Assembly: GCA_963920765.1 (NCBI GenBank) | Contig: OY987242.1 | Location: 30,714,002 to 30,778,001 of the forward strand | Reading direction: 5' to 3' | DNA length: 64,000 bases | Source: Ulota crispa | Lineage: Eukaryota > Streptophyta > Bryopsida > Orthotrichales > Orthotrichaceae | Part shown: one piece after another, positions 36,876 to 58,748 of the stretch | Position numbering within the stretch: position 1 is the stretch's first letter | Layout: each line of letters opens with the position of its first letter | Notes under the pieces: generated by a model | The model's input: only the letters and a program-made list of their open reading frames with translations | What the model was told of the DNA's origin: nothing | Databases searched by the model: none | Position numbers and translations under genes: made by a program

Positions 36876-37287
36876 GGGAATTGCTAAAGCCACACCCAAA
36901 ATTGCTAACGCCACACCCCCTAGGTGTGCGTTGAGCATGAAATGTAAGAACTTAATGCAGGTTTTATTTGATTTAGGTTAAAACATTTGCTTCATTTTTA
37001 TCATTCTAAGGTTGTATTCAAAAAATAAGGGGGTGTTTGAATTTGAAATTTGAAATAAAGGACACTTGAATTACTTAAAGCAAAATTACATTAAAAACAA
37101 CAACAATAATGCAATAAAATTTAAACAAAAATATGTATTTTTTCTTCTTTCATTCAAGGAGGTGGTAATGACAGGATTGAATGAATGATGGACCACTTGA
37201 ATATATTTTTTAAAGCACTAAGCTCTCAAATTATGTGCTAACATGGGTGTGGCGTTAGCAATTTTGGGTATGGCTTTAGCAATTCCC
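36876..37287. repeat. MITE with GGGAATTGCTAAAGCCACAC ends, copy 1
   Basis: GGGAATTGCTAAAGCCACAC at the left and GGTATGGCTTTAGCAATTCCC at the right are inverse. Just inside, the motif is repeated (CACCCAAAATTGCTAACGCC and GGCGTTAGCAATTTTGGGT). A second copy lies at 58346-58748. Non-coding. Confidence 0.85.
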
Positions 37288-38059
37288 TATAAAATTCTAG
37301 AGGGTTATATGTAAACTAGATATTTTGGTGAATATCAATATTGTACTTGCAAGTAAATTTGGTTTCTCCAAGTTTATTTGACTATCACATTTCCTTTCTT
37401 TAATTTCTTGAAAGTCCACGTTTCAAAGCATAATTTCTAATACATTTTTTTGATTAATTTCTCAAAAGATCATGAAATGAACTAGAAGAACACAAATAAT
37501 CTGAATGGTGGCTTCTACATGCACTAAGCTTGGATTATGTATTCTTTCATAGTAACTATTTTGGAAAACATTCTCATATGGCCATATTGTAGCAAGTTGT
37601 GTTTGTAGTTCTTTGGAACGCCACTCCTTGTGAGATAGGTTTTTCTATTCAAATTTGCGTTTATTCATTGTACAGCATAGTTTGACTCTTGAAATGTTGA
37701 AGCACTAATGAGAGTTGCAATGGCAAAGTATCAAATTAAACCCAACATCTTCAAAATTTAGTGGAAAAAAGAGTTGTGTCACAAAGGGGTGTTACTTTTA
37801 GAATATATTTTGTGTTCAGTGGTTTTTGTTGATTCCATATGTAAGGCAAATCTAAAATCCATTTATAAATGTTATTTATGCAAGCTATGTTAGTTGATGT
37901 GTTTTTTGTTTGAATTTAAAAATTACAAGTGCAATTAAAATATTTATAGAAGAAAAAGACCTACTAGCAAAGTTTGTTGAAGTTGACAACTGAAAACATC
38001 CTAATATGAAGAAGGTAGCCAGCACAAATGTTTCAATAACTTCATCCGTGCCACATCAA
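37288..38059. other. AT-rich non-coding stretch
   Basis: No gene or bounded repeat is seen up to the left TIR at 38060. Confidence 0.45.
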
Positions 38060-38771
38060 TAGTGGGTGTCAAACCTGGCTATTTCCTGCCGAACAAGTTT
38101 GGGTGGGTCCACTCCACAACTCAAAAACTTTTTGAAGTTATAAGGCATGATAACTTCATCACCCACCTGTAGAGGTGGTTGAAAACTTAAACTAATTATG
38201 GCCTCTCTTTATAAAAGTTATCAAGTGCTCTTGTAGCTCTCTTCTATAGGGAGATTGACAAATTGTGATACTAAAGAGGGAGACTGTGATACTAAATAGG
38301 GAGATTGTGATACTAAAGAGGGAGGGTGTGATACTAAAGAGGGAATGTGTGACATTAAAGAGGTTAGGGTGTGATATTACAAAGGTAATTGAGATTTTAG
38401 TAGTATGATTAGTAATAGCACTAACCTCTTTAATGTCACACCCTCCTTCTTTAATATGACACCCTCCCTCTTTAATATGACACCCTCCCTCTTTAATATG
38501 ACACCCTCCCTCTTTAATATGACACCCTCCCTCTTTAATATGACACCCTCCCTCTTTAATATCACACCCTCCCTCTTTAGTATCACACATCAATATTTGT
38601 AACATTATCCCATATTTAAGTTATGAAGACTTATTCAAAATTTTATCAAGTAGTTTGTGAAGCTTTGCAAGGGCCATAACTTTGGAGAATTCAGTTTAGC
38701 CACCACCCCATAACTTTATTAAAAAATTGGGAAAAAATTATCCTAAAACCTTGAAAAATGCCAGGTTTGAC
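38060..38771. mobile_element. hAT-like short element with inverted minisatellite
   Basis: TAGTGGGTGTCAAACCTGGC begins at 38060 and GCCAGGTTTGACAC ends at 38771; the 14-bp GTGTCAAACCTGGC pairs perfectly. Ends of the form TAGxGGGTGTCAAAC resemble those of many hAT elements. Inside lie the inverted arrays at 38262-38590. It abuts the left CCGTC array of the large composite. No clean 8-bp duplication was found, so either this is a solo MITE or its left end is the end of the larger element. Confidence 0.55.
38262..38590. repeat. Inverted arrays of a 15- to 21-bp minisatellite
   Basis: Left arm: units of TGTGATACTAAAGAGGGAG at about 38,262-38,360. Right arm: about eight units of CACCCTCCCTCTTTAATATGA at about 38,438-38,590, the reverse complement of the left motif. 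The two can form a large hairpin. The 137- and 69-codon minus-strand ORFs (HIKEGGC and ILKREGV repeats) and the plus-strand one are products of 21-bp periodicity. Confidence 0.9.
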
Positions 38772-38779
38772 ACTAGGAT

Positions 38780-39075
38780 TGTCTAAACCGATGTGACATT
38801 GGGTTTTCACGTCTGGATGTCATGACGCATCCGTCCTGACATGTCCGGATGCGGCAGGATCCGTTTGCAATGCTAACGGGCTGTCCAGGCCGTGGATGAA
38901 GTCCGTCAACGAGATCATCGACTAGACAACGAGACTGTCTATTGGGCGCACGATTTGTTGACTAGACGCACGGCCCGTCGACTGGGTGCTGAGTCCGTTG
39001 ACTGAACGCATAGTCCGTTGATTGGAGGCACGAGCCGTCAACTGGATGGCCCGTTGACATTTCCAGTCCATTGGA
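38780..39075. repeat. Left CCGT-rich subterminal array
   Basis: A GC-rich tract with repeated GTCCGT, CCGTCAAC and CCGTTGACTG words. It lies just outside the transposase gene. By analogy with hAT elements, where the transposase BED finger binds short motifs repeated near the ends (AAACGG in maize Ac), this may be a transposase-binding region. Similar arrays lie at 46040, 48610 and 56870. Confidence 0.6.
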
Positions 39076-39339
39076 CAAGACTGGCTGTCCACAAAAGTTT
39101 TAAGGCTTAGGGACCATAAGAAGGACTTTCTTGTATTGAAGGTCACTTGTCCTTGTTCATCTTTGCTCCTATGACTTGGTTGGGTTACAACTAGTGCACT
39201 AGAGGGAAGTCCAAGGAGGGTGTGTGTGGGGAGCACTTGTTGTGAGAGCAACAAGTGTTGTTTTTTTATCACATTTCATTTAGAATACCAATCTTGCTCT
39301 CTCCTTTGCAAAGTTAGGTAGAAGAACAAGTAGTGGCAA

Positions 39340-42300
39340 TGGGAGGGAGGAGGACTCAGTGGGATCCATGGTACACGCAATGACCAAATGGGAAAAGTGC
39401 ATGCAATTATTGCAGGACTTTGATAAATTATTGAAAAGATTGCTTGCTTTTCCATTTGGGGTACAAAGGAAATAATAACTTCCTTGGCGTGAGGTCTTGC
39501 AACAAAGTTGCTGCAACTGTGAAGGCCATGTTTTTCAATTGTGGAGGAAATGTACTTGTTGTCTCTTTGGGCGAAACTGAAAATAATGTGGAAGTGACAT
39601 CGCCGTCAACAACTCCAGCAAGTGCGGTACAAGGGGAGCGGCAGCATACTACTTCAGTCTCAGCAAATGACGGTGCGGAACCATACGAGGGACAATGCTC
39701 CTAAGTACAATCGTCAGAGGCATCTGGCCCTAGTTTAGCTCCCAGTTGACCTTTGAGGCAATTTTCTGTACAAAAAGGAATGAACTCTTCAAAGAAGCAG
39801 TTGCTAGACAAGAAATGGGCTAAGTTTTTTTTATGAAGCTCACATATCATTCAATGTAGCAAAGCACCCTGCTTTTGTCAATGCAGTGAGATCAACATCA
39901 GAGGTGAAAGTTTTGTACAAACCTCTAGCTTACCATGCACTTTGTACAAAGCTCCTGGAATCTGCAAAGGACAAAGTGGTAGCAACGGTGGTAGAGAAGA
40001 CAAGGGGACCAATCCATAAGTATGGTGTGACAATATGCTCTGATGGATGGGACAATGTCTCACATTGGCCATTGATCAATATCATGTTTGCATGTACAAG
40101 CGGAGAGGTATTTTTTGGATTGGTAGATACCACAGGTGAAAGCAAAGATGCTACCTATGTGGCTAATTGTATGCTTGATTTCATCAAAGAGGTGGAGGGT
40201 CAGAACGTAGTACAGGTTTGTACAGACAATGCAGGGAGCATGCGTGCTGCCTCTGCTCAAATAATTGGATGATTTCCATACATTTACTTCTAAGGTTGTG
40301 CAGCGCATGTGCTGGACCTTTTACTTGAGGATTGGGGAAAACAAGATTGGATAACTAGCATTGTGGGAAAAGCAAGGGTAATTGTGAATTACATTTGCAG
40401 GCATCACATGCCACTCACAATCTTTCGTCGGCATTCTCCCAATCATATGCTAAAAAATCCAAATGAGACTCGCTTTGCAACCATGTTCTTCATAATTGAG
40501 CGGCTGGTAGAAGTAAAGGAGGCTATGGAATTGACTATCCATGATCCGCAATGGAATGAGTACATGAGGAAATTGACAATAGACAAAACGCGAAAAAATG
40601 CAGACTTTATTCGACGACGTGTGCAATGAGCTGCCTTTTGGAGGTCATGTTTGAACTTTGTGCGCATGGTGGAGCCTGTCATGGTTGCCCTTTGAGAGTT
40701 TGATGGCAAGCGTTCGTGTATGGGGAAGGCATGGCTTGTGATGAAGAATGGGAGAAGACGGTTTTATCTTTCAAGGATCCACCATTTTCTTTACCAGCTC
40801 ATTACGCAAATTGCACTGAAGACAAATTTTACGCAAGGTGGGATATGATGAGAACAGATCTGCATTACGCAAGTGCTCTATTGAATCCCTTTTTACTTGA
40901 TGAAGTCATGCTAATGGACCACAATGAAGCAAAATATGCCATATTGAGAGTATTACGCAGAATGTCAGTTGGAGATCGAGCGTTTGCCTCAGCTTTGTCT
41001 GAGTTCCAAGCTTTCTAAGAGGGGTGAGGCCAATTGGCTGGACTCCCAGGGTTCACACTTTAAATTTGGAGCCCCATGAATGGTGGGATCTTCTTGGAGC
41101 GGGTGCTCATACTCTTGCACCGATTGCCAAAAGGATCCTTGCACAAGTATGCTCTGCATCATCATGCAAACGCAATTGGAGCTTGTACTCCTTAGTTCAC
41201 AACAAGGCCCACAATAGATTGACATCAGAACGTGCAAAGCAATTGGTTTATATTTATACAAATTCCAGGACTCTGAAGAACAGGGCTGCAGCTGATCCAA
41301 CAAGGTGGTACACTGAAAATATGATATCAAAAGACTCCATGACAGAAGAATCTGATGGTTTGGACCGTGGATCTGTTCTCTCTAATCCCGATGATGACAA
41401 CTCCAATGAAGGCGATGACCCATTTTGTACCTACAGTGGGGGGCAGGAAAGGCATACCCTAATTGACGAGTCTGTATTTGACTTCAATGAAGGGGATATT
41501 ATTGGCAATGGCCATGAGGGACTCAAACAAAGACCACCGCATATTCCACATGCATGGGCTGCTGTACCAAGCAAGAGAAATACAGAGGATGACATTGTGG
41601 CAGAAACTCAACTAATTCTAGTCACTCATGACAACGAGTGGCCACTTTAACATTACCAGGTGGTATTCAAGTTCAAAGAGAATGCAAACATGATGAGTTT
41701 GTACCACCAGCATTGCCTACTAAAAATGCTCATACAGAAGGGCCCTTTTGTATCCATGCGGTGGATATGCCCCCTCCACACAAAGTCTCAATTGGAGTGT
41801 GATACAAAACGCCCATATTGGACAATCCACCAATTCAAAATTTGTCAAGGCCGTCTTCTTCCGAGGTTCATCCTGTTGCACTGTCTTTGTCAATAGGCAC
41901 ACGGTTGACTAATCTCTTTCCAACTCTAAATATGCCAAAACGTAGGACTTCAAACCGGGCTTCATCACGCCTAGCTGTACGTCTAAACAATCCATCTAAG
42001 CATCCTCATCAACAAGGTACTACTAATGAACATGTGAGTAAAAGAGGATGGCAAAGGTTGCAAAGAGAACATGCGGCAGTCCAACCATTTGACTTTGTAG
42101 GGATGCCCAATACAGACGAAAAGATGGATGCAACCAAGCAAAGACCTATTCGGACAGTGTTCTCCATTGTTTGTCCTTCTCCTTTTACTAACCCCGTCTC
42201 CCTTCCTGACGCATCAAGTCCAAGTGGCAGTGCTAGATCCAATGATGATGATGATTCCAAATCCGTTGGGGCTATATCTAGTGACTTGGGCGAGGTTCCA

Positions 42301-42375
42301 GGAGATAGTGATTATAGAGTGCCGCGACAAATTCCAATACTTGGACTTGGCAAAAATCAAACTACTACCACATAG
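39340..42375 (+). pseudogene. hAT-type transposase, decayed
   Basis: A cut-and-paste transposase spread over all three frames. In order: a BED-finger remnant (about 39,360-39,540: WEKC, then NYC, HLGYKG, C in VRSCNKV); a DUF659-like catalytic region (39,840-40,272; motif TICSDGWDNVSHWPLI; then VCTDNAGSMRAA); a GCAAHVLDLLLEDWGK segment (40,294-40,629) and the TRFATMFF block; a 40,716-41,013 part; then the hATC dimerisation region (41,024-41,290: EWWDLLGAGAHTLAPIAKRI, SASSCKRNWSLY, NRLTSERAKQLVY). An acidic then basic tail runs on to 42,375. In-frame stops include 40,270, 40,291, 40,627 and 41,800, with frameshifts near 39,700-39,830, 40,690, 41,020 and 41,650. Non-functional as it stands; the family call is firm. 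Confidence 0.9.
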
Positions 42376-42800
42376 GATAATGTAGTTATTTCTAGGCGCA
42401 ACCTTAGACACGGAAATTGTTGAGTGATTCTATGCGGAAGAGAACAACGTCTTCATGTTCTCAAGTGCAAGGGTTTAGGGTGCTCATTGTTCATCACTCT
42501 ACATGCCAATTTTGGCATCATTATGAATAATTATTCTTGCTTCTTTCACTCTCATAGTCTCATGAAGTGACAAAGGATGTGCGTAATTATCTTTTACATC
42601 CTTTTGCACATTATGTCCATGTGTTTTTATACTAGTCCATAATAGATCTTTTTCCCTAAAATTTAGAACAAACATTGCTTCTGCAATATTTCATTCTTTG
42701 CATAAGGGACAGTGGGTTGAAATTTGTAGTGCTTCATTTCATTTGGGCTTGTGGGGTACTCATAAAATGTAGAGGCAGTTTTGGATTTAGGGTTTAGGGT
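42376..42800. other. Spacer with telomere-like heptamers
   Basis: Two or three copies of TTTAGGG at 42,785-42,803, with more at 42,868-42,890 and 43,080-43,250. These are too short and scattered to be a telomere; at least some coincide with TTAA-element ends (CCCTAAA). Confidence 0.5.
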
Positions 42801-43848
42801 TTAACCCTCTAAAGGACCATACTTTTCTCCACGTCAACATCAATGCAAAATGCCACTTCTAGAAGGTTTAGGGTTTAGGGTTTAGGGATTAGGAAAATGC
42901 GGCTAAAAGGTCTTTGCCCAAGGTTTAGGGTCTACAACAATTCATTGTGGGGATGAGCTCTTTCCAAATGGTACAGAGTGACACATTTTAATTTAAAGTA
43001 ACAAAGAATATAATCTGTGATGACCACATAATTCATGCACTCATACGCCTTTTACCTTGATTTTTTAAGGTTCAGGGGTTGCAATATGATCTCTCCATGT
43101 ACGACATCAATTTAGGGTATAGGGATTTAGGGTCTATGTACTTTACAGTACTCAGATTCATGGATTTTAAAACAATTGAAAATTTGTAACCATACATACG
43201 ACAGTCGACAAATGGGAAAATTAGTGAGTAGATACAGGTTTAGGGTTTATGAAATCACTAAATGGATAAGCATTTAATTATTGAAATGAAATATACTAAT
43301 CCAAAATTCCGGACAATTACAAATTTGTGATACTCAATCTACTTAATTTGATTTAATTGATTTCCCAAAATACATAAAACCAAATTAAACCAAATGGCTT
43401 CTATGATTATTTTAGAGTGTACAACCCCTCATTGACCATAAACAAAAACTACCAAAAATGCTAAAACCTTCACCTCATCAATTGAAATTTAATAACTCTA
43501 AGTTTTTCTTTTACAGATCACTTTGAATGCCAGATTAAAATTCTAATATTGGAACAATATACATTACAAAGAATTTGACCAATTGGATTCAAGGTTTAGG
43601 ATACACTTGTACACGCAATCTTAAGCAAATGTCCCTAAGTAACTAAGATCATACATAACTTTATTATTAAATGACGGAAATAACATATAACTGCATGCCC
43701 ACATAGGTCTTTGCTTCCCCAACCTTTAGTAAAGCTCTCAAAAAATCATAGGTAATAGTTCACAAATACATACATTTCCAAAGGCCAAAGCAATAAAGTC
43801 CAGCCTTTCCCCCAAATAGACAACTGTCTTTCAAGAGTTTAGGGTTAG
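42801..43848 (-). mobile_element. Decayed TTAA MITE inside the composite
   Basis: It starts TTAACCCTCTAAAGGACC. The right part (GCATGCCCACATAGGTC, GCTCTCAAAAAATCAT, then GACAACTGTCTTTCAAG) matches the family in the inverse orientation of the 5115 copy. It lies between the transposase and the kinase-like gene, so it is a later insertion. Strongly diverged from other copies. Confidence 0.55.
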
Positions 43849-44219
43849 TTTGAAAAAGATCAAAGCACATGTTGTACTTCTAATAATTTTGTTGAATCTT
43901 GCATATTACCATACAAACTTCAATCCTTTGAGGTACACTTTACAGTTGGAATAAATTGAATGACATGCCACAAAACAGTTAATTACAAACATCTTGAAAA
44001 GGATCAACAAAACATTTATTTATTTATATAAAAAGAAACATAGAGAATGTTACATTCCTAGAAGAATGCAAGCATTGTTACACATCTATTTTGCCACTAT
44101 TATAATGGAGTAATAGATCCTAGTGCTACGTAGTGCAACCCAAAATTTGCACTTGAATTGTAATATACTAATACCTAGCCTTCATTCCTTGCTTCTTTGT
44201 CCTTTAATTCTTGTTCTTT
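43849..44219. other. 3' flank of the kinase-like gene
   Basis: No gene seen. On the minus strand this is the downstream flank of the kinase-like gene; on the plus strand it is AT-rich spacer. Confidence 0.4.
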
Positions 44220-45839
44220 TCAGGTTTTGCAGTAGGAACCCACAGGTGGTGTCCAATTTGTTGGAGCCCTACTAAGTTGTTGCACGACATGTGTCACTAA
44301 GCGTTGTTGCAGTGGATCCTCCTTGCACAATTCCCCCAATATTTTGTGGAACATCGTAAATGCAGTATTATCAAGAATCATCTCTTCATTTCCTCTGTCT
44401 TCCTTCCATACCTTTGCTGCAATTTTTCCTACGGCATATCCATTTGTGTGTATACCTAAACATGGTGGCTTCACCACCCTAGTGGGAGATACAAAAGGCT
44501 CTGCCCCTCCGGTCAAGTACATCAATTCCAATGCCACCCACCAACATTTTTTTCTTGTTGCCTGCAACTGTCTAAGGTCTTGGAATTGGTACAACAAAGG
44601 GGTTATTTCATTCAGGCAACTTCCCATTCCCCAATTGCATAGCCCAATCCACACAGTTCTTCCATCATTGTTTGGAAAGTGTAGCATGATGTTATCTGGC
44701 GTGATGTCGTTGTATAGTACCAAATGTTGCTGCACTGCCTCGACGATGCAAATCAACGTCCACGCAAGCACAGTGCGGTTGCGTCTGTATGCCATGATTC
44801 ATTTGGCTTCTTCCATCACTTGTGGAGTTGCGTGATATGCAAGCTCTCCAATTTCTTCATAATCTTTGTTCATGCGATCCAAATGAAACATGGCACCCAG
44901 GGTACCTCTGTTCCACCACTGTGAATAACATTCCATAGTTGTGTCATTCACAGCAAAGAATTTGATGACTCTTGGATGCTTGCAAGGACAAACCAATGCC
45001 TCAATGGACAACTTCTCCCTAGCCTTTTTCAAATCATCAACATGCAAAGATGTCTTTCTCACTAATTCCATTGTACCAGGAATATGTTTACAAATTTGGA
45101 GGGTGACTCTAAACACCCATCCATGCCCCCCTTGTTTGTTTTTGCTAGAATAGGCATTCACCACCACCCTTTGCTCAAGGAACACCACCCCTCTTGCTAC
45201 CCCTTGACCTATGGCCAAGTTTTGACTCTTTTGAAACCATGGAGCATAGCAAATATTGCTTGAGGAGAATGCATGGATTGCATCGGGCCACTAGTGTACC
45301 TTCTTGTGCAGCAGCTTCAACGCTCTTGCCTTTGGCTCATCATCCCGTTTGAAGCCCTTTGTGTTGTCGGCGACTTGGGCCAGGTTGAAGATACAAGTCT
45401 GCACTTGATCATCTAGCCATTTCTGGAAGTTCACCTTTGTCCGGTCCTCCAGCCGCTCGTCCTTGTTCATCGCTAGCCAGAACAAGTGGTGGAGTTTTTT
45501 CTTGACAATATCCATTCCTTGCATTTTGTGCAAGATGTATGCCATATTCAATTGCAAGGTGGAATACTGCTCAAAAAAATTCATTGCCACTTCTTGCAAC
45601 CTCCTTGTTGCAATCTTCCTTGGATGCTCTTTGAGGTTTGTAGCTTTGTGCCTCTTTTGTTGCTTTTGTTTCTTCCCCTTCAAAGATTCCCTAGCACCCA
45701 CAGGATTGACCCTATTTGGTCCTCCAACCACGGCCTCTAAAACGCCATCTATTGACTTTGGAGATATTTGCACACCTAGATCCCTAATGCCTATGAACCA
45801 AGCATCCACCTTCTCCTTTGAAAAATCATGCCCTACCAT
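44220..45839 (-). pseudogene. Protein-kinase-like protein with two in-frame stops
   Basis: One frame runs 540 codons from ATG at 45,839 to the end at 44,220, interrupted by TAG at codon 183 and TGA at codon 347, with no frameshift. The N-terminal 180 residues are basic and unrecognised (KKQKQQKRHK). A kinase-like fold follows: GGHGWVFRV (about residue 237) as glycine loop, lysine in ELVRK (262), glutamate in LSIEAL (280), WWNRGTL hinge, YNDITPDNIMLHF (D378, N383) in place of HRD-x4-N, and LCNWG (402) in place of DFG. The missing metal-binding Asp points to a pseudokinase or a highly diverged kinase. It lies tail to tail with the transposase between CCGTC arrays, so it is probably transposon cargo. 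The family has no name I can give. Confidence 0.75.
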
Positions 45840-46039
45840 CGAAATATAAATGAAGTATAAAGAAGAAAGGATTTAGGGTTTAGGGTTTGCAGAATTTGCG
45901 AAACTCCCCCTCCCTCCTTCACCCAAGCCCCTACTCAGTACCCAAGCACCTACGCTCCCAAGCAAAGAGTGAAGACAATCCAGGACAAGGAAGCATTGTC
46001 AAAGCAAGAGGGACTCATGCAAATTGAACCAAAAGGAAC

Positions 46040-46510
46040 GTATAAGTACGCAATTCTTGTGGACAGGCAGGATGTCGAGGGGACAGGTAGTCCATCGAAG
46101 GGACAGGCAGTCCGTCAAGGAGACGAGTAGTCCGTCAAAGGGATGGGCAGTACGTCGAGGGGACAAGCACTTCGTCTTCATGAGATGGCTAGCCGTCAAA
46201 GGGACGAGCAGTCCGTCCTAAGGAGACGGATGGCCATCAAAGGGACAGGCAGTCTGTCCTCAAGAAACGGTTGGCCGTCCAGGCGACGGGCAAGCAAATA
46301 AGGCAATGGGCGGGCCATCTTTGAGACGTGCATGCCAACAAGGCAATTGGAGGGGGGTGTCTAGGTGATGGGCTGTTTGTCCAAACAATGGGCTCGCCGT
46401 CCAAGCGACGGACAGGCTGTCCAGACGACGGTTCAGTCCGTCGTGGAGGCCGTCCGGGGAATGGATGTGGAAGCAGTCCAATGAGTGGGCAGGCCGTCCA
46501 TTAGATACCC
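46040..46510. repeat. GACGG/CCGTC-rich array, second
   Basis: About 470 bp with more than twenty GTCCGTC, GGGACAGGCAG, GGCCGTCC and related words, upstream of the kinase-like gene. It is GC-rich against the surroundings. It may be the right subterminal region of a transposase-plus-kinase element starting near 38.06 kb, or an internal array of a larger one. Confidence 0.6.
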
Positions 46511-46704
46511 TGCAAAGACGGTTGGAGCGACCAGGGGTCAGAGTATCCGTGGAAATTCCCTCTAGATTGCAACTCTAAAGGAATTTGTACACGCGTTGCC
46601 CTGGCTGCAAGAATTGGCTAGAATTGGGTGAAAACTAACATTTAGTCATTTAATCCCAAGAATATTTCTACAGAACTGACACGCTCATGGAACCCTATGC
46701 TCCA

Positions 46705-47285
46705 CTAACCCCTAAATGCCCAAGGCACCCTATTTGGGTGTTTACAAAACTTTGAAGATGAATAAATCCTTACCAAATCACTTTTTTTAGTAATATCTTT
46801 CGAGCAGAAGTTGGTTCTGAAGTCTACTTTCAACATCAAAAATTTGATTTAAATAATCAATATTGCTGATTTTTCTACTCAAGATGTTGTACAAAGGTAT
46901 CCAATGCAATGTTTAGTTTTTTAGTGTTGGAACAACTTGGAAATGAGCCAAAAATACTCTAGAGCTTGGAGAAAAATCCGCATTAGAAATCCATTCAAAA
47001 AAGATACAAGAGTATATTTTGAACACTGTAAATTAACTAAAGTTAAACATGTAATAATCTTGAACTTCATATTGTATTGATGATAGTTTGTTTAGATTTG
47101 ACAAGTGAAATGAGGATTAGGAAAATTCAAGCATCTTTTGCAGAATTGCAGCTTTAACACCCTCACGTTGAAACCTTCTAATCTTTCGAACGACAAGTGA
47201 TACTGTTGAGTGAAGCTTGGTTGGTTGTTCAATTCCTTGAAAACGTAAAGAAATTAAAAAAGGGCTTGGGCATTTAAGGGGTTAA
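46705..47285. mobile_element. Short TTAA-family copy
   Basis: CTAACCCCTAAATGCCCAAGG at the left (TTAA changed to CTAA) and GGGCATTTAAGGGGTTAA at the right are inverse; 581 bp. The interior differs from the 900-bp sub-type. The ends match the ATGCCCAAG variant seen at 12381. Confidence 0.65.
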
Positions 47286-47796
47286 GGGTTTAAACAACCC
47301 AAAGCATCACACTTCTTAGTTAGGGTTCATCATTGACTCCAATTAACCATCTCTAGCGCAAGTTTGAGAAAACCCTAAATTGCAAAGGGAGTCACAATCA
47401 TGACCCTAAACCCTTACGCTTCTAAATAAAGTTAAAGTGTCGCCGTATTGTAATAACTAATAAGTACATGTAGTTCAAGTTTAAGCCATGTAGCATGTGT
47501 TTTTGCTACAAACATATACTTGCCTTCCCATCTTTGAGCATATATGAAATTTTGAACCCTAAGGAGGTCACCAAGGAATTAGGGTCAATTAATTCCACAA
47601 AAAGTTGTTTCCTCACTTGTCAGGTCATTCCCCTAGAAGTAGATGTTTCCAATGAGTTTCAAATAACAAAAAGGGCTTGGTCCTCTTGTTGTTGAAGAGT
47701 ACAAAGTTAGAATTAAATACAAACCCTAAACTATACTAGTAGGGTCTTATCACTTGGAGGCTTGGAGCTTTGAGTGGCAATTTATGTTGGTTGAGG
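47286..47796. other. Spacer between two TTAA insertions
   Basis: Non-repetitive sequence with no recognised gene; it may be original transposon or host DNA between the second and third CCGTC arrays. Confidence 0.4.
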
Positions 47797-48589
47797 GAAC
47801 CCGTATGGGACCATTGTCTCTTTGGGGACATGTTGGACTTTGGGCATGTACATATGGCTGAACTATTATGTGTGATTTTTTGAAACATTTGTGGAAGGTG
47901 GGAAATTCAAAGATCTATGTGGGAATCTACCTTTTTCTTCAATCTGACATTTCATGAAGAAGATATGCATGAATTTATGAGAATTTAGGGAGGACTTCCC
48001 GTCCAGCACTCCGGGCAACCCAAAAACTTCTTTAATTTGTATTTTTATTTAAACTGAAATTTGAAACTTGTTCTTCACATTTTTGTAATAGGTTAGCCGT
48101 GAGAAGCTTTGAATCATTCAATTTAAATCAATGACATGGTAGTTATGAGGAGTTTTTGATTGCGGGCCATTCTAGATTCTACACTCTAAAAAAACTTTGA
48201 ATTTTGAAGTCATTTGTTTTACTAAATTTTCCCTATTTTGGAATAAAAATTAAACCAAAGGAAATAGAATTTTTATTACAACATTACAACCTTCAGGATT
48301 TGCATTTTTCATTTCAATAATTAAATGCTAAACAATTTAGTGTTTTTGCTCATTCTCTAATTCTTTTTATTTACTAATTTTTCCCACTTGCTTGTGCTGT
48401 ATAGTTCAAATTGATTTGAAAATTCTCCCACATATACCTAGATTGATCTCCTACATGGAAAAAAAGAGCGGAACTTGGGATACATCATCTTTTTTGTTAT
48501 AAGAGTGCATAAAGGCTTGTGATATTTTTGGGTTTAGGGTTTCATATTTTTTTCTTGAAAACAAAAGGGTGTGGTCCTTTAGGGGTTAA
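47797..48589 (+). mobile_element. Decayed TTAA MITE at 47.8 kb
   Basis: The right end GGTCCTTTAGGGGTTAA is intact. The left is degraded (ACCCGTATGGGACCATTG), but the interior follows the 5115 copy: GTGATTTTTTGAAACATTTG, GAATCATTCAATTTAAATC and TTTTGATTGCGGG. About 790 bp. Confidence 0.65.
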
Positions 48590-48609
48590 CATACCCTTTT
48601 TATGTATAG

Positions 48610-49560
48610 TTGTACACGCCGTCCATGAGAACTCAAGACCATCAAAATAGACGGGCCAATGTCCAATGGAGATCAGGGTTTTTTTTTCCTTTTTTAAACA
48701 GTGCCAAAGTGGCAATTAAAATGTTATAGTGCTGCTCCATATTTCAACATTCATCCACATATTGGATAGAAAATATCACATTAGCACATGTTACATATCT
48801 ATAATTTGGTTTTCATTCATTATTTGGCAATTTCATCCAAGTTTTTTTAAATTCTGAATTTTTTCGACGATTTCATCCAAATATTACTGTTTTTCTTCTA
48901 TAGGATTGGTGCTACTAAAAAAAATAAGTGCAATTTTGCCCCGAATTGCTAAAAAAAGAAACCTTGCTGCGAACAAAGTGAAGGATGGGAGGTTCAGAGG
49001 TTGTTGCACTAAAACAATAGGCCGTCAACATTCAATTGTAGCCGTCCAACTGGACAGACCATCCGTCCACCAAGGCTGTCGACAGGTGGCGTAGGTCGTC
49101 CAAGCCTTCAATGGTCGTCAAGGAGCAATGGTGGCCGTCAATGATGCTGGCCGGTCCGTCCATGTAGGCCGTCCATGGGCCTGGACGGACTTTGAATTCT
49201 GATAATGAAAACACAAGACTAAAGACGGCAGCTCGACCATGTGGACGGAAAACCGACCCTCTAGACGGACTACCAAACCTTTGGACGGACTACCAAGCCT
49301 TTGGACGGACTACCAAACCTCTGGACGGAATGCCAAACCTCTGGACGGACCACTGAGGCGACCAACATTCCGCTGAGCCTATCGATGGACTCCCTGTCGA
49401 TGCGCAGCCTGTTGATTAATGCGGACGGCGTTATGATGGTGGTATGAGGCTGGGGACGGCCCCTCAAACCTATCAACGGGCTGCCGAACCTCTTTGGACG
49501 CTCCTTGGAAGCCCTGGCCGTCCATAGAGGGGCGCGTCCGTCCACATGGATGGTCCAGGA
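48610..49560. repeat. CCGTCC/GGACGG array, third
   Basis: A short part at 48,610-48,670 and the main part at 49,020-49,560. It contains an 18-bp tandem, TTGGACGGACTACCAAACC, at about 49,275-49,350 and many GGCCGTCC words. It immediately precedes the coiled-coil/RING gene. An AT-rich segment (48,680-48,960) separates the two parts. Confidence 0.65.
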
Positions 49561-49831
49561 GTTTTAATGTTGATTTGACCCCAATTACCAACCTAATTAG
49601 CTTGGGTAATTGGAGTGTATAAACTTCCTAAATCCCCTCATAATCGTGCTTCCTCTCTTGAGTTGCTTTGTCTTTGCTTGAGAAAGCTTTGCATTGCAAT
49701 TCGAGGGGAAGTGTTATACATGTGGCATATGCTTTGCCAAATTTCAGTTGCCTCCATGCAATAGAAGGTAGAGCAATTTGCCATTTGTATCCTCCTATAG
49801 ACTGTGGTTTTTTACTATGCAGGTAAATAGT

Positions 49832-52126
49832 ATGGCTACCCCAGGCTCCCCAATTCACTCAGGGAATGAAGGTGAATCCCCTAGGAAAAAGAGGGAAAAT
49901 AGGTCAGAAGTGGATTGGGCTACACTTAGCAATGAGAGGGTTCTGGCAAAGCCAGGCTACAAACAAGAGGTTGAATCCTGGACTAGAATGACATGTCAAG
50001 CCTACATTGACTGGGCCCACATAAACTGCCATTGGGATTTTACTAGGAACAAGACACATGTGAAGTCGGGCATGGCTTTAATCAAAAAATGCAAGCACCA
50101 TGCATTCAAGAAGAGGTTGACTAAGGTTTCATTGGCACTTTGGAGGGAGGTCACAAAGAAGGATGCGACGCTTTCATAATGTCAACTGGCGTACGCAGAA
50201 GTTTTCTTGGGAAAGATGTAGATTGGACTACTTACCAAGCCAAGAAACAAAACAACAAGTTTCCAAACAGACTTCGCCACATTCCTACAAATACAGACGT
50301 GATATTGGAAAAGGTGGCACATGACATGGAAGACATTCAGCCAATCGTGCAAGAGATCCCAGCACAAGTTTTGGTCCAGAATGTAGCAGATCTACATGAA
50401 GCGCAAGATCTGGACGTGGAAGTGGATATTGAGCAACTAGAAGAACATGGAGTTGATGGAGCAAACAACGTAGCAAATGAGGTTGCCATGCCAATAGCAG
50501 TGCAACAAAATTTGAACGCAAATGTTTTGTTGCAACAAGAGAATATCATCTTCAATCTAATTCATGGAGCAACAGCTAATGATGAGGAACTCCAACACTT
50601 GCACGACTTAGTGTTGACGCTGCGAGCGGAGAAGGACAAAGTAATAAGAGCACATGCAGCGGATGTGGAAGTCCATAGAGTAAGGGTGCAGCGCCTCATG
50701 GTTGAGAATGACAGGCTAGCTAGAAGCCACACCACCTTTCTAGCTTGCGGAAGACAATCGAGCATGGACAACATTCCATCGCTAGACGGTGTTGTGGCAA
50801 GCGCCACATATGCTGCACATGATAGCCTGGTAACCGCCACTCATGCAAATGAATTTGTGGTGTGGCCTCGTTTATCATTCCCGCCTCAAACTTTTAGGGG
50901 TGAAAGTTCAAATGCGGCCGGGGCTGAAGCAATCCAAGCAGTGCAAAATCATAGGGGGCCCATATTTGATGTCAACGCCATGCGTGCACATGCAAAGCAA
51001 GTAGAAGTAGAGGTGGCAAGTACAAAGGCAAACATGGAAGAACTAACGAACTTCGTGCGTGCTCTTGAATTTCACTCCGTGGCAATTGAGGATAATGTTG
51101 TGGTTTTCACCACATCGAATACAAAGCTGCAACAAAGATTGGACATCTTGAAGCCTCAATTACAAGATTGGTCCAAAGCCCTGAAAGGAAGGGAATGCTG
51201 CTATTGTTGCTAAACATTAAGCTTGCATGCAACATTTCAGAGAACAAGGTTTTGCAAATGCAACCGAAGTGAAGAGAGTAGCTGCAAAATTCAATGATGG
51301 AGGTCATTGTTATTTTGGCTTGACCTATTGGCCTCGCATTGAAGAGATGTTCTCCAACACATTGCCAACAAACCGCCCAAACACAAGCATTAATTAGAAC
51401 GTGGATCCGACTTTGCAATTTGAATACAACACTGCACGATGTAGGTATTTGCGCAAAGGCCAAGTATGTGAGCCTTCATTATTGTGGCTTGAAGTTCAAG
51501 ATTTTGTAAAGGACAGCACGGTATGCATTATGTGTCAAGAGCCTTTTGGCCCCGAGGGCGGATGGAGCCTCAGTACGTGCCTGCACATGTACCATCCTGG
51601 GTGTCTCATTGCTCCCATGGTGACGAGAAAGAGATGCGTTACTTGCAGGGCCCCGTTTCATGTCCGGCTCTACAAAATGTTTAGCCTCCAAAACCACATG
51701 CCAATTCGCTACAAGCATAACGAAGACAATTTACCAGGGCCAGGCAACATGGTTCATTGGAAGAAAGATTTGTCATGGCTGTGGAAGTGGTCCTTTGACT
51801 TCCATCATCTATCAACACAAACTGTGGACGAGGCTATGCGGTTTGAAAGTGTGGAGAGCATCACCAACATCATCACGGGGGTAATTAGAGATGGCGATCG
51901 TGAGCGTCGATTGTATGCAGGTCAGCTTGCTGGTGGACATTGGGACACAGTTTGCGACGTCTTTTCACGTGGATCCCACCCACATGGCATACTATATGAC
52001 AACGAAGGTCACAGTGTGAGATTGATTGCCGTCATGACTTTCAAAGAACAATCAACCTTTGTTGAAGACAATACATTTCACGAGGCTCAATTGTTGAGTT
52101 CCATATACAACTACATCCATAATTAG
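49832..52126 (+). pseudogene. Coiled-coil and RING-H2 protein, decayed
   Basis: Coding-like sequence in three blocks. 49,832-50,179 (ATG in good context at 49,832; basic, tryptophan-bearing segment). 50,140-51,213 (another frame; long, acidic then heptad-rich stretch suggesting coiled coil, for example around ENIIFNLIH and VRVQRLMVEND). 51,221-52,126 (frame of the first block) with a RING-H2 finger at 51,524-51,646: C-x2-C-x14-C-x1-H-x2-H-x2-C-x10-C-x2-C. The conserved C-terminal tail (about 50 residues from GHWDTVCDVF) is unrecognised. Frameshifts near 50,165 and 51,200 and stops at 51,218 and 51,395 interrupt it. RING-H2 proteins usually act as E3 ubiquitin ligases; that role here is inference. 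Lying between CCGTC arrays, it looks like transposon cargo. Confidence 0.75.
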
Positions 52127-53400
52127 TACGATAGGCTAGTAGTGGCTCTGTTGACCACTTTGCAATCTTAGAATGAGTTGCAAAGGTTTTTGAGAAATGG
52201 CGTAGATTTAGCACCAAACTTTATAGATCTAGGAGATGCCTAGATATTATATTTTTAAAGTATTTTTGATATATACTATAGCACAAGGCATTGTAATACA
52301 AGGAGATGAGTGATTTTTTTTTGGGAAATGTGTGCAAGTACTCTACATGGATGTAAATATATACAGGAAATTATTCAAATCAAAGATCCAGGAAGGCTTA
52401 GCAATTGTTGTTGCACTTGCAACATTAGATATGAAATGAAGCATTTACATTTCACTATGTCTTCTCTACATATTGTACTGTGCATTTGTATTATGGTCAC
52501 TTGCAAAATATAAGTAAAGTATATTCCTAAACCACAAATCAAAACCCTAAAACCATTCAAATAAATTTTTTTGTGAAAGAACCGCATGATGCGTTTTGGA
52601 ATGACTACGTGTATTAGAAGCATTTTTCTACATCACCTAGTGACCAAACTAGTTTTTGTACTTTCTTTGTAATTGAATAAAATATAACATGGTGAACCAC
52701 ACCTTTTTCACCCTTATTTACAGATGCAACTAATAGAATATGGTGAAGGACACAGTTTTTCCTACGTTACAAGAAATGCATCATGTGATTATTTGCATAC
52801 TGAAATAGGGGCCAACATATAGAGACTTTGGTTTCACATTCATGTACATGTGCACAGAGCATAATATTTGTTGTCAAAATGTAAAATCCTAGAATTTAAC
52901 ATTGAATTGTACATTACATATTTACATAAGATAGGACTTGAAACCTCTAAGTTTCAAACTCTATATCACGATACCCAAGTAAATTGTCTAGGGTATGGAA
53001 ATGCTTACACTCCTAAAATCCTAATGACATTGTGCTAAACCCCCTAAATCAAAACATCTAAAACAATTCAAAGTACATAAAACATATTGGTAATTTTTGT
53101 TCGTAATATTTTTTTTAATGGCAAAGTTTACAATTTGGTTTTTTGTAGACACTAGCGAGGCTTGAACCCACATCTAAGTTTTGACCATAACAAGAGTTTT
53201 AAATAGAAGGAGAAGTTAGAAGTTATAACTAAAAGAGATTTAGATATAAAGCAAAACTTGAGTTGCAACAATATATGTTATATATAGAGAATTGAGATTG
53301 TTATAATCCAAGTAGAATATGTATGTAGAGGTCAAAGCCAATTTTTTTTACTACATATGGTTTATGTAAACCGTATTTGCTTTTCTCTTGTAAATTCTAA
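52127..53400. other. 3' flank of the RING gene
   Basis: AT-rich and without credible genes. AATAAAAT near 52,676 could serve as a polyadenylation signal. Confidence 0.4.
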
Positions 53401-53604
53401 GTGATGAAATGAAGTTTAGAAAAATTAGTTGGAGGCCTAAACAAACTACAGTAGTCAATAGCCATGTTCTTTTGGTTTATTGTTCCTTCAAAAGAAATAC
53501 TTAAGTATGCTGGAATGGCCTCCACACTTGGAAAAAAATGACAAGAATACAACAGTGACATTTAAAACACAAATGCAATTTTAAATCTCCCTTAGACATC
53601 TATG

Positions 53605-53695
53605 CTAAAATGTGGTATGTTGGTGAAGGCTTAACGGCCCTCAGCCTGGTAACGAGGAGGTCATTGGTTTAGACCCTTGACGTTGCAATTATTTA
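53605..53695 (+). repeat. tRNA-related SINE-like unit 1
   Basis: TTGGTGAAGGCTTAACGGCC, then GGTAACGAGGAGGTCATTGG and GGTTTAGACCC recall the later half of a tRNA. It is weaker than units 2 and 3, but preceded by text similar to that before them. Confidence 0.45.
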
Positions 53696-53818
53696 GAACT
53701 TGTTATTCATGCCTATAACTTTTAATTAAAGCAGAGTAATATGGAAAAAAATGGTGACGGTGAAATTCAACTGCAATGGCAAACTTTTCTTTATTTTGTG
53801 TTTCTTCAAAAAAAATAA

Positions 53819-54791
53819 TGTAGCCCCTAAAGGACCATTGTCCCGTTAGGAAACAAATGGGATTTTGGGCATGTTCCTAACTTCCTATGGCTAAAGCACT
53901 TTGCATGATTTTATGAAACTTTTACTGAAGGTCAAAAAGTCAAAGATCTACGTGGAATTCCCATTTTTCCTTCATTCCAATTGTTATTCAAGATGTTAAA
54001 AATTAAAACCTATGAAATGTTGCTCCTTGGGCAACCAAAAACTTCTTTTAATTTTTTTCTTTTTCAAATAAAAATCTGAAATAGGTTCTTTAGACTTATA
54101 TAGATTTGGGGAGCTTTGAATCATTCAATTTTGATTGATTACATTAAAATTGTAGAAGTTTTAGTTTGCGGGTAGGTGTGGTTGTGCTTTGAAAAAATAA
54201 CTTATGAACTATTGAATTTCATTTTTGAATGCAAATTTAATATTAAACCCTAAAAAATATATTGGAAAATGGAAAGGGACCAAAGGGTGAAGATTGCTTG
54301 GTACTTGCTAGGACAACCTCACCATTGGGATTATTGTGATTCAATTCCATTGCTAGGTAATAAATAATATAACATTTTATTCAATCTAAAACCGTCTTCT
54401 ATTTAATTTATTTTCAATAATAAAAATTAAGTATTTTTTGTTTTGGTTTTTTTCCAAAGACTCTCAACTCAAATCCCCACCGTAAAAAAATAAACCTCAA
54501 AACCCCATGGTGCAAAAATTTGATGTTAAAAAAACTCAAAGTCAAATAATCTTGTTGTGCAAGGTGCAAAAAAGCTTGTTTTTTTATCCTTTAAATGTTA
54601 AAATCTTGCAATTTGTGCGGTCAAAGTTTTTAAGTTTTGAGTGACACATTTTTATACAAGTCTAGGACAAGATCCTACGGTCAGATATGCCTAAACACTA
54701 ATCTTCAAACTTTTTTACCCTTTCTTGTAGAAGTGACAGGTTTGAGTATCTTTTGAAAAATTAAAGGCCATAGTCCTTCAAGGCTTAGTCA
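53819..54791 (+). mobile_element. Decayed TTAA MITE at 53.8 kb
   Basis: Left: GTAGCCCCTAAAGGACCATTG. Right: about TAGTCCTTCAAGGCTTAG. Both TTAA have decayed. The interior is a mix of the two large sub-types: its left half has GTTTGCGGGTAGGTGTGG as in the foldback at 17189, and its right half has CAACCTCACCATTGGGATTA as in 8736-9664. Possibly a recombinant. Confidence 0.65.
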
Positions 54792-55190
54792 TTGAAATAG
54801 CCTTCAAACTTGCAAAATAAAGATAGTATTGTGATTTACAATACAAGTACAGTATTAATTTGCTATTGGACATTTGGCCTAGCACGTGGTGTGTTGCTGA
54901 AGGCCCATGGGCTGGTATCCAGGGGATCTGGGGTTCAAGTCCTCTGGGCAACAAATGACCACGATTGTGGGTGAGGTCTTGTCAAGATATACTGGTCCTT
55001 GGTTTCAACGCATGGTTCTCATGCAGACCTATCCAAATGTGGTTGAATTTCACAACCACATCTGGATAAGCTTGCATGTGGACCATTTGTTGATATTGAG
55101 GAGCTATATATGCCGATAAGATTTTGGCCCCAACCAAGGTCATCCATCCATTGACTGCAACTGCAAAGAACTGTTACATTAGCACTAGCC
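54790..55190 (+). repeat. SINE-like unit 2 with flanks
   Basis: TGGCCTAGCACGTGGTG (54,876 on) resembles a pol III A box and GGGTTCAAGTCC (54,931-54,942) a B box. The 85 bp before it (ATAGTATTGTGATTTAC and onward) and a block after it (CATTAGCACTAGCCAACACA) recur in unit 3, so the copied unit is about 400 bp. Confidence 0.6.
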
Positions 55191-55349
55191 AACACAGTCT
55201 GATGTGCAAACTTTTTGCATTTTCTACCCTTTCATTAGTATAACTTTTTACTTAAGAATTGAATCTAAAAAAAATTGTCGGAGGCAATACTAAACTACAT
55301 TAGCCAGCTTTTCTCCATTCAAAGATTCTTGAAAACAAATACTTTAGTT

Positions 55350-55760
55350 TATTGAAATAGCCTCAAAACTTCAAAACTTGCAAAATAAAGGTAGTATTGT
55401 GATTTACAATACAAGTACAGTATTAATTCTCTATTGGACATCTAGCCTAGCACATAGTGGGTTGGTGAAGGCCCATGGGCTGATAACCAGGAGGTCTTGG
55501 GTTCAACTCCTTGCCCTTGCAATTCCTTGCAAGGGGGAGGACTAGAGGAGGTTCCGGTGTGGCAAAATCGTGTCAACATGTGCATCATGCAAGTACAGCC
55601 CGTTCAAGGTCCGCATTCACATGCTTGTAGTACGTTGATGCATACCTTGAAGAGGTTGTACTTTCAAGTTTCCTATGTCTTTGCAATCCGGCCCTAAACC
55701 CTAAACCATCCAGTAATTGCAGCTCCTCACATTAGCACCGGCCAACACAATCTTTTATAT
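55350..55760 (+). repeat. SINE-like unit 3 with flanks
   Basis: TAGCCTAGCACATAGTGGG (A-box like) and GGGTTCAACTCC (55,499-55,510, B-box like) with CTGATAACCAGGAGGTC between, close to the anticodon-to-T arm of a Met- or Ile-type tRNA. It shares head and tail with unit 2 about 565 bp upstream. I infer a tRNA-derived SINE family; a local duplication of one decayed tRNA locus is the alternative. Confidence 0.6.
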
Positions 55761-56868
55761 TTTCTTGGATTTCATGATCTCAAGTGCAAAGTAACTCGTA
55801 GGCAATAGCATATTGATTTCTTGCGTGAACTTACCCGCGAACTTGTTCGTCTTTTAATTGTAGCTATCAAATCACTCACAAAAGCTGTTGGCCTTGATGG
55901 ATAGACTTGGTCGATTGTAGTTAACATGCAATCATGGTTGTAGGCAAAAGATTGCACATATCAGCAATAATAGGTCTGCATTCACATACTAGCAATTCTA
56001 GCTGGCTTTTGCATGTTGGGGTGGATTTAGAATTTGTAGCATTGTGCCCCATGTAATTGAGCTGGGACTTGGGAGGATCATGTGGTTGAATCGCCTAGTG
56101 GAAGGAGTCTCCTAAAACCTCTTTCATGTCCCCTCAAGACTTTGCAAATTTACCCTAAACCATCATATTTTACCCTATTTCTTAGGCCTATTTCTCTAGG
56201 AGGAGAGGTGATTTGGGTTTTCATTTTATTCCTAAGTCGTCATTGTAAATCGGTTTATCCCTTTTGTTCAGTGTGTTTGGTTGCTGACCCCACAGCACGC
56301 GATTAGTTGCCAGATTGCCTACCCGCAACTTGATTGACAACCACTTCAAACATCCAACAATGAATCAACATACTACTATAATGAGAAAAGCTTCCCTCAC
56401 AAACCACACCTCCTGCACTAGTTGTTGTGGATCATTGTAGAGGAAACGCAAACTCGATGCAACCAATAACAATTGCAAATTTGAAATAACGTGGCCTCTA
56501 TGGCGCTCTAAATTTGCCGGATCTACTTCTTTGTGTTCTTCTCCGTGCCTGGCGTCAGCAAACAACAAATTGCCAGAGGCGTGTTGACTGCAAATTTAGT
56601 TGGAAGCGCGCTTGTATTCCCACCATTCTACCCAACACTACACTTATATTGTCAAATATTGTTGGCAACACTAATTACAAACCTTGAAACTAAATGTCAA
56701 CAAAATGTTGCCAACACTAAATGTGAACGTATATACTAATTGTTAATTTTTGTAAACTTTGGGAGTAATTTTTATGTACAAGGTTACATTTAGTGTTTGA
56801 ATTTGATTTTGGTAAAGATTTAGTCAACAATTTTATTCAAGAAGTTATGCATGAATTTTATAAGGTGT
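55761..56868. other. Non-coding stretch before the last array
   Basis: No gene is recognised. A GAGCTGGGACTTGGGAGGAT-type block near 56,060 followed by GTGGTTGAATCGCC could be another SINE fragment. Confidence 0.35.
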
Positions 56869-57445
56869 TGAAGCAGGCCGTCCACTTGGCCGTCCGTCTG
56901 GCCGTCCAACCAGGTCGTCCACTAGGATGTCAAACAAGGCCGTCTACTAGGGCGTCAAACGAGGCCGTCCATGAGGGCATCAGACGAGGCCGTCCACGAG
57001 GGCATCAAACGAGGCCGTCCATGTGGCCGTCCACGTGGCTGTCCCCTAAACCGTCAAACTAGGCCGTCCATCTGGCCGTCTAAGAATGTCATCACACTAG
57101 GCCCTCCATCTCGCCGTCTAACCAAGATGTCCATCTGGCCATCAGACCAAGCCGTCCATTTGGCCGTCCATCTAGGCATCCATATCAACAGTCAACGTGG
57201 AGTCTCAGATTGTAAACCTGTCCGTCTAACGAGGTTTATGGATGACTGAAGCCATCCAACGCGTGCATTGCAAAGTCTGTCCAATGGATTTCGCAACCGT
57301 TGTCAACCGTTCTGTCGATAGATTCATCTGTCCATTGCTATTTTTCTTCCACTTTTGAAAGTCTGTTGACAAATTTCATCCTGACAGCACCGGGGTTGGA
57401 TCTTGACGCCTAGACGGACATCCAGTCGTCCGGACGTGACGTGAC
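56869..57445. repeat. Right GGCCGTCC subterminal array
   Basis: About thirty CCGTCC, CCGTCTA or CCGTCAA words in 570 bp, mainly GGCCGTCCA-type units of about 16-24 bp. GC-rich. Frames here (56793-57062, 56971-57249) read out repeats of RPRGHQTRPS-like text and are not genes. Ends within 15 bp of the right TIR. Confidence 0.8.
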
Positions 57446-57457
57446 GGGGACAACCTT

Positions 57458-57469
57458 GTTTGACACCCA
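57458..57469. repeat. Right TIR of the large composite (candidate)
   Basis: GTTTGACACCCA here is the exact reverse complement of TGGGTGTCAAAC at 38063-38074. Just inside both ends there are further weak matches: AGGATTGTC near 38,773 against GACAACCTT at 57,450, and CTGGATGTC in both subterminal regions. The flanking bases do not show an 8-bp duplication, so the pairing is suggestive only. Confidence 0.5.
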
Positions 57470-57472
57470 GTA

Positions 57473-58345
57473 ATGAGGTGATCAGCAACAATGTTGAGGA
57501 AGATTTTGATTTTCCTTAACAAAAATTCCTAAACTTCTCAATTTCAACCAATTTTTCAATGCATGCACTAAATATTGTCTATGTCCATACATTATAAATA
57601 GAAGGTTTTTTACAAATTTAGCCAATTTTTAATTAGTTGATTCAAGTTTCAACCAATTTATTTGACATTTTATTCAATCGACTTCAGTGTTCAAGAATTG
57701 TTTTGGACTTTACTAGCTAAAAATTGGCATTTTTTGTAATCAATTAGTTTCTTGCCAAACTATGCCGGATATTTTTCTAAAATTACATAGTAATATACCA
57801 TGTTGAGAATTTTTAGTAAAATTTAACTGGCTTTTTTGCCAGCAATTTCGAAATGTAACCAATTTTTTTCCCAATTCCATTGACTAACAATGAACTAGCA
57901 GCTAGTTTTTCTCGCACATTGATCAACTTTCTACTTATTTTTGAATCTCCTTGCTCAGTAGTCATGAGTTCAAATTTGAATATTGTTTGTGCTTATCACC
58001 ATTGCACATCATACTATTAGGGGGTTTCAAATATGCCATTCAGCACCAAAATCATTCACGTGAATAAGATTTGTGAAAAACGTGGGCAAGTCACTCCGTG
58101 AACGAGGCATGACGACCTCCTGGAGATTGTCATAGCGTATTCACTAGTAAACAAAAACTTGTTCACGACCATTTGTTCATTTTTTTTGAGAGAGATATGA
58201 AACCTCCTATTGTATAATGGGATAACATTTAACCTTTATAGTTTAGGAAGGAAGAAAAATTACCTAATAGTTTGATAAAGTATTATTTTGATATCCTCAA
58301 ATAAAGAGAATGACCTCCAATAATTGCAATAAAATGTTAAATTTA
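57473..58345. other. AT-rich non-coding stretch
   Basis: Nothing supported outside the right end of the composite. Confidence 0.45.
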
Positions 58346-58748
58346 GGGAATAACTAAGTCACACCCAAAATTGCTAAAGCCACACCTTGTGAGCACACAA
58401 TTTGAGGATTTGATGTTAAGATTCTTGATCCAAGCAATTCATCATTCCTTTAATTATAGCATTACTACCTACTTGAAAGAAAGAAGGACAATTACAAGGT
58501 TTTATTAAACCTTAAGTGCACCACTGCTGTTTTTGTTTATGTATTCTTGCTTTACGTAATTCAAAAGTCCAATATTCTCAATTCCAAATTCAAGCACCTC
58601 CAAATTTTGGGATTTAGCCATAGGATGATAAAAGTAAAACAAAATTTTTAATCCAATAAATAAATAAAACTCATGATTCATGCTCAAAGCACACCTTGGG
58701 GTGTGGCTTTAGTAGTTTTGGGTGTGGCTTTAGTAAGATTAATTTCCT
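58346..58748. repeat. MITE with GGGAATxxCTAA ends, copy 2
   Basis: GGGAATAACTAAGTCACACC at the left and GGGTGTGGCTTTAGTAAG near the right. Inner repeats (AAAATTGCTAAAGCCACACC and GGTGTGGCTTTAGTAGTTTT) match copy 1 at 36876. The ends are slightly worn. Confidence 0.75.

Follow-up and report, generated by a model that had tools for sequence, protein, structure and literature searches.

The 64,000-nucleotide stretch of Ulota crispa contig OY987242.1 analysed here (assembly GCA_963920765.1, positions 30,714,002 to 30,778,001; hereafter the window) probably harbours a single decayed hAT-type insertion, which has its edges at positions 38774 and 57458 and carries three genes, namely those for a hAT transposase, a kinase-like protein and a RING-H2 protein. 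This assessment refers to one hAT-type insertion with these edges and overlaps with an explanation by gene capture, which differs in the role of the cargo only. The sequence analysis covers the 64-kb window, and thus a single locus with one copy of the element. A preliminary description of this DNA had also proposed a decayed hAT-type insertion with three genes. The idea of one unit is upheld by the target-site duplication, the element ends and the restored empty site, and the outer terminal repeats that had been proposed were abandoned.

A scan of border pairs revealed that the 8-bp word TTTGACAC occurs exactly at 38766 and 57459, i.e. as a target-site duplication of the length known from hAT elements. 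The 10-bp ends TAGGATTGTC and CAAGGTTGTC bounded by this duplication are identical at seven of the ten positions, and all three mismatches are transitions. A comparable fit, meaning an exact 8-bp duplication together with ends that agree at 7 or more of 10 positions, was obtained four times when the regions 38720-38830 and 57400-57510 were dinucleotide-shuffled 4000 times; the initial border scan had additionally taken in borders at 38045-38084, which lie outside this control. The terminal consensus of hAT elements is YARNG, which the right end CAAGG matches and the left end TAGGA misses at one base. Together, the duplication, the ends and the empty site described below would mark one transposition event (Table 1).

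The preliminary description had placed the boundary of the hAT element at a 12-bp inverted pair located at 38060 and 57472. The pair is real and even longer than described (38052-38074 and 57458-57480, 23 nt, 87%), and its score was equalled or beaten by 7 of 3937 pairs of random pieces. However, it is more plausibly the terminal repeat, now split, of an older miniature inverted-repeat transposable element (MITE), here designated S, and was dropped as the terminal repeat of the hAT element. S is an element of about 0.7 kb with the left repeat CACATCAATAGTGGGTGTCAAACCTGGCTATTT, an uninterrupted end would be of the type CACCTCATTACTGGGTGTCAAACCTGGC, and its terminal repeat at 38066-38084 matches both 38755-38773 and the far right flank. 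When position 38773 is joined to 57467, the reverse complement reads CACCTCATTACTGGGTGTCAAACCTGGCATTTT and the inverted match of S, which measured 23 nt before, extends over 33 nt, of which 28 agree. Since the rejoined flanks restore the repeat of S, the outer pair is interpreted as the ends of S, which were driven 18.7 kb apart by the insertion. Thus, the hAT element most likely inserted within the right terminal repeat of this older and smaller MITE.

Table 1. Features of the window that relate to the probable hAT-type insertion and its surroundings
Feature	Position	Strand	Remarks
Probable hAT-type element	38774-57458	.	Length 18,685 bp with the nested MITEs and the SINE-like repeats; marked by duplication, ends and restored empty site
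Target-site duplication, left copy TTTGACAC	38766-38773	+	Exact match at 57459-57466
Target-site duplication, right copy TTTGACAC	57459-57466	+	
Left terminal repeat TAGGATTGTC	38774-38783	+	
Right terminal repeat CAAGGTTGTC	57449-57458	-	Minus-strand reading
Left part of MITE S	38052-38773	.	Holds TGTGATACTAAAGAGGG-type tandem repeats; right terminal repeat cut at 38773
Displaced end of S right terminal repeat CCAGTAATGAGGTG	57467-57480	.	
Array A1	38774-39110	.	Left terminal, upstream of transposase; 4 CCGTC sites
Array A2	46040-46560	.	Upstream of kinase-like gene; 14 sites
Array A3	48597-49575	.	Upstream of RING gene; 20 sites
Array A4	56865-57458	.	Right terminal; 18 sites
Decayed hAT transposase gene	39339-42372	+	About 1011 codons with 8 stops and 4 frame switches; putative start codon
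Kinase-like gene	44223-45839	-	539 codons, single frame; stops at 45293 (TAG) and 44801 (TGA)
RING-H2 gene	49832-52126	+	762 codons; 2 frame switches and 2 stops
Nested TTAA-type MITE c10	42801-43826	-	nhmmer 1.1e-22 over 42802-43783; end near 43826 extrapolated
Probable nested MITE c11	46704-47286	.	Ends CTAACCCCTAAATGCCC / GGGCATTTAAGGGGTTAA; weak end matches and inspection
Nested MITE fragment c12	47593-47693	+	nhmmer 1.1e-9 over 47593-47685; left limit undefined
Nested MITE c8	47796-48596	+	nhmmer 6.5e-72 over 47798-48532
Nested MITE c9	53817-54789	+	nhmmer 6.7e-129 over 53822-54786
MITE family copies	5115-6053, 8736-9664, 12691-13610, 18726-19703, 27429-28366, 35553-36428, 60200-61111		

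The CCGTC-rich arrays reported in the preliminary description were confirmed. The window contains 72 sites in comparison to 15.8 expected, a count that none of 100 shuffles reached, and 67 of the CCGTC/GACGG sites lie inside the 18,685-bp element as opposed to 5 in the remaining 45,315 bp. Four arrays can be delimited, two of them terminal (A1 and A4) and two in the middle of the element (A2 and A3). When each stretch was shuffled on its own, the observed CCGTC count was reached in 1 of 200 shuffles for A1 and in none of 200 for each of A2, A3 and A4, which identifies A1 as the weakest array. A1 is also devoid of the words that are commonest in the other arrays (CCGTCCA and GCCGTCC). The arrays have 55 7-mers that are common to at least three of the four (shuffle mean 12.0, maximum 19 in 50 shuffles), and A1 holds 38 of these (null mean 7.3, maximum 13). 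Moreover, the array CCGTC site nearest to the putative start codon is found at a distance of about 300 bp for the hAT gene, 273 bp for the kinase-like gene and 290 bp for the RING gene. A further word, TTGTACACGC, has three exact sites in the window (43607, 46585 and 48610), all of them within the element, and ten matches with up to one mismatch compared to 1.6 expected.

The hAT transposase was recovered in pieces at 39808-42375 on the plus strand. These pieces contain a DUF659 region (5.9e-21), which is usual in plant hAT transposases and extends into the following piece (0.0012), as well as the hAT C-terminal dimerisation domain (Dimer_Tnp_hAT, 1.6e-7, 31.5 bits with a cut-off of 21.4). A PDB sequence search with the dimerisation piece gave nothing meaningful, and Pfam, consulted for an N-terminal BED zinc finger, gave no match for 39435-39701, where a Cys/His pattern is visible by eye only and spans a stop codon. 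The frames of the transposase and the RING gene were picked by eye, and for the transposase they are uncertain towards the N-terminus. The kinase-like gene was confirmed as one frame with two stops, and its kinase match proved to be weak, Pkinase being below the Pfam cut-off. Weak matches to casein kinase 1 chains (1.3-1.5) overlap the Pkinase match at the catalytic loop. By eye, the loop retains its D and N (YNDITPDN), and NWG stands in the place of DFG. The sole match in a search of four pieces against NCBIfam, a weak one to LanL (0.015), lies near the catalytic-loop matches. Because the kinase matches are all weak and Pkinase falls below its cut-off, the gene is only referred to as kinase-like. 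The RING-H2 gene was confirmed, with zf-RING_2 at 1.2e-4 (below the cut-off) and RING finger protein 24 as the best PDB match (1.3e-4). Inspection by eye of 51398-52123 revealed the ligand pattern of the C3H2C3 type, Cx2C-x14-CxHx2Hx2C-x10-Cx2C. The rest of the kinase-like and RING proteins gave no Pfam match above the cut-off, the best one being IMD (0.0021, below the cut-off), and AlphaFold predictions of two pieces, run without an alignment, yielded no usable fold (mean predicted local distance difference test scores of 34.5 and 33.6). A fourth gene in the 52.2-56.9 kb region was considered and rejected, the 21 open reading frames of at least 55 amino acids found there, which were not scanned with Pfam, being no longer than 97 amino acids. 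With 12 lesions in about 1011 codons of the transposase versus 6 in the 1301 codons of the kinase-like and RING genes, the sequence hints that the cargo is less decayed than the transposase.

The element has been enlarged by nested insertions of a MITE family of about 940 bp with the ends TTAACCCCTAAAGG...CCTTTAGGGGTTAA, which has TTAA at both edges in six of the seven longest copies and which we take to be piggyBac-like. The plant superfamilies listed as known in 2008 in the relevant passage of a grapevine study do not include piggyBac (PMC2528002). A profile (nhmmer) built from seven copies outside the interval yielded 16 matches to the family across the 64-kb window with E values up to 1.1e-9; 12 of these are outside the element, including the seven training copies, and the reversed window used as a control gave nothing below 0.18. 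For c11, the end matches are weak (46706-46726, E 0.3; 47176-47285, E 0.007), and the former is not significant alone because it falls in the control range. A2 and A3 are 2.1 kb apart. Strong MITE matches fill about 0.9 kb of this gap and weak ones about 0.6 kb more, so that roughly 0.9-1.5 kb of it would be a later insertion. A2 and A3 may have been one central divergent array, and the element may have measured perhaps 14-15 kb before nesting, as an estimate. The spacers at 42.8-43.8, 47.8-48.6 and 53.8-54.8 kb were ruled out as modules of the element, as they are copies of the window-wide MITE family. The element also contains look-alikes of tRNA-derived short interspersed nuclear elements (SINEs) at 53486-53690, 54791-54943 and 55351-55511, which have a B-box-like GGTTCAA and no ARAGORN or Rfam match.

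Several observations weigh against a single hAT-type insertion with three genes. The direct word common to both borders is 9 bp long (GTTTGACAC) and two adjacent 8-bp registers are both exact; the register given here was picked because it brings the element ends into alignment. Furthermore, the left end TAGGA deviates from YARNG at the fifth base, and the pattern YARGRTTGTC is also present exactly twice outside the element (9065 and 13276), its matches with one mismatch being at chance level (26 versus 30.6). The score of the rejoined flanks was reached by 34 of 2896 random 8-mer pairs, and an exact duplication of at least 5 bp was not found around the rejoined S. With respect to the cargo, Pkinase (0.051) scores 13.4 bits, which is below the 31.7 bits set by Pfam for kinase membership, and zf-RING_2 scores 22.7 bits, below its threshold of 27.3. 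The transposase is also more heavily decayed than the other two genes, a difference that genes of one cohort need not show. Finally, the analysis covers one copy of the element. This restriction to one locus, the weak protein matches of two of the genes and the several border pairs that were tried would suit an explanation in which unrelated decayed elements lie side by side and the 8-bp repeat and the short ends match by chance. Nevertheless, we regard such a coincidence as highly improbable in view of the shuffle control of the borders, the restored MITE repeat and the confinement of 67 of the 72 CCGTC sites to the interval.

Another explanation, which we consider unlikely, is that several related elements make up the interval, as a composite or as a nest, for instance A1, hAT gene, kinase-like gene and A2 lying head to head with A3, RING gene and A4, with the outer ends mobilising both. 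Indeed, the four arrays are paired around two blocks, and inner ends that once lay in the stretch from A2 to A3 may be masked by the MITEs. When no YARNG filter was applied, 30 inner edge candidates were counted in comparison to 11-25 in 20 shuffles, an excess that likewise speaks against a single element. Three inner candidates reach from A3 across the RING gene to A4 (49050-56901, 49523-57023 and 49525-56900); however, their 8-bp words CCGTCCAA, TGGCCGTC and GCCGTCCA are array motif words, so that the repetition of the arrays accounts for them. No inner pair with an exact 8-bp duplication was found when YARNG ends were required, although such a filter would likewise have overlooked the left end of the element itself. 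A relaxed search for nested edges gave one pair (48338-52549), which corresponds to the level in shuffles (0, 0, 0, 0 and 1 in five shuffles). Alternatively, a hAT element may have captured two host genes once by transduplication, in which case the kinase-like and RING genes would be without a role in transposition. There are precedents for such a capture: according to the passages on this family in the grapevine study, Hatvine-6 elements share transposase and ends and carry varied genic sequence (PMC2528002), and Pack-hAT elements exist, as stated in the text on Pack-TYPE elements (PMC8903248). Moreover, one copy of the element is the sole basis for judging its cargo. However, with 539 codons (2 lesions) and 762 codons (4 lesions), the two cargo genes are long, and their similar distances from array to start would be unexpected from random gene pieces. 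A one-off capture therefore appears rather unlikely to us, and the cargo may instead be a regular part of the element.

When compared to the hAT superfamily (Ac, Tam3, Tag1 and the Hatvine families), the single hAT-type element proposed here has DUF659 and hAT dimerisation domains, an 8-bp duplication, short terminal repeats and repeat arrays near the ends in common with its relatives. In contrast to them, it is about 18.7 kb long, carries two further long genes and has arrays in the middle. For the grapevine hATs described in the sections concerned, terminal inverted repeats of 8-23 bp are reported, along with duplications of 8 bp (PMC2528002). That plant hATs carry captured gene sequence has already been published for grapevine Hatvine-6 (PMC2528002), which resembles the present element in being a transposase-bearing hAT with extra genic sequence. 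The extras of Hatvine-6 are, in the portion of the text that deals with them, often unique to a copy and contain introns and exons (PMC2528002), whereas the element in the window has two long reading frames, each adjoining an array. Pack-hAT and other Pack-TYPE elements likewise combine hAT ends with gene-derived cargo; yet, by the definition given in the respective text, Pack-TYPE elements are non-autonomous and lack a transposase (PMC8903248). The element described here keeps a decayed one, and membership in this group was rejected. A hAT element with both a kinase and a RING gene was not described in the titles and beginnings of abstracts searched, which leave the subscription literature largely uncovered and absence unproven. 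A term search of PMC12062965 returned no passage on the hAT superfamily, and in PMC13317346, a 2026 review of plant gene capture, the terms 'hAT', 'kinase' and 'accessory' had no occurrence.

The arrangement suggests a cut-and-paste mechanism, in which the element's own or a related transposase would bind the CCGTC arrays and the short ends and excise the unit. The excised unit would then be joined to its target, thereby duplicating the 8 bp TTTGACAC within the right terminal repeat of MITE S. The left array A1 probably serves as promoter and binding region of the transposase gene, and the middle arrays A2 and A3, between which MITEs have since intervened, probably had the same role for the kinase-like gene and the RING-H2 gene, which are divergently oriented. 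The kinase-like and RING-H2 proteins would most likely be accessory factors that phosphorylate or ubiquitin-tag the transposase or host silencing factors. It may tentatively be proposed that there is a lineage of large plant hAT elements that regularly encodes a kinase and a RING-H2 ubiquitin ligase, both expressed from arrays that bind the transposase, and that these two form an integral module for regulation or against silencing. If this were true, multi-gene hATs with signalling-type cargo would widen the gene content of plant cut-and-paste transposons and would suggest that such elements themselves encode a control of their transposase or of the silencing by the host. Exact search strings for sister copies follow from the edges mapped here.

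A scan of viral and prokaryote contig collections detected no relatives, which is uninformative either way for a eukaryotic element, and scans of the window with Rfam and for tRNAs (ARAGORN) gave no matches. The window consists of AT-rich eukaryotic DNA, with a GC content of mostly 0.30-0.34 before 38 kb, and TTTAGGG-like tracts are present, which together with the DUF659-type transposase would suit a plant host. GC-rich tandem arrays with the units GGGCATCGAGGCCCATGG and GTTGGCACTAAGGGCTAACACATCAA lie at 30296-31756 and are possibly the arrays of another element. The hAT-type element is flanked by two mutually inverted copies of a repeat of about 400 bp (36876-37289 and 58344-58736), the former of which terminates in a 43-bp inverted repeat (97.7%). 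Finally, a repeat family of about 260 bp, whose members are 74-80% alike, occupies 1757-2013, 8020-8283, 14783-15051 and 15681-15933.

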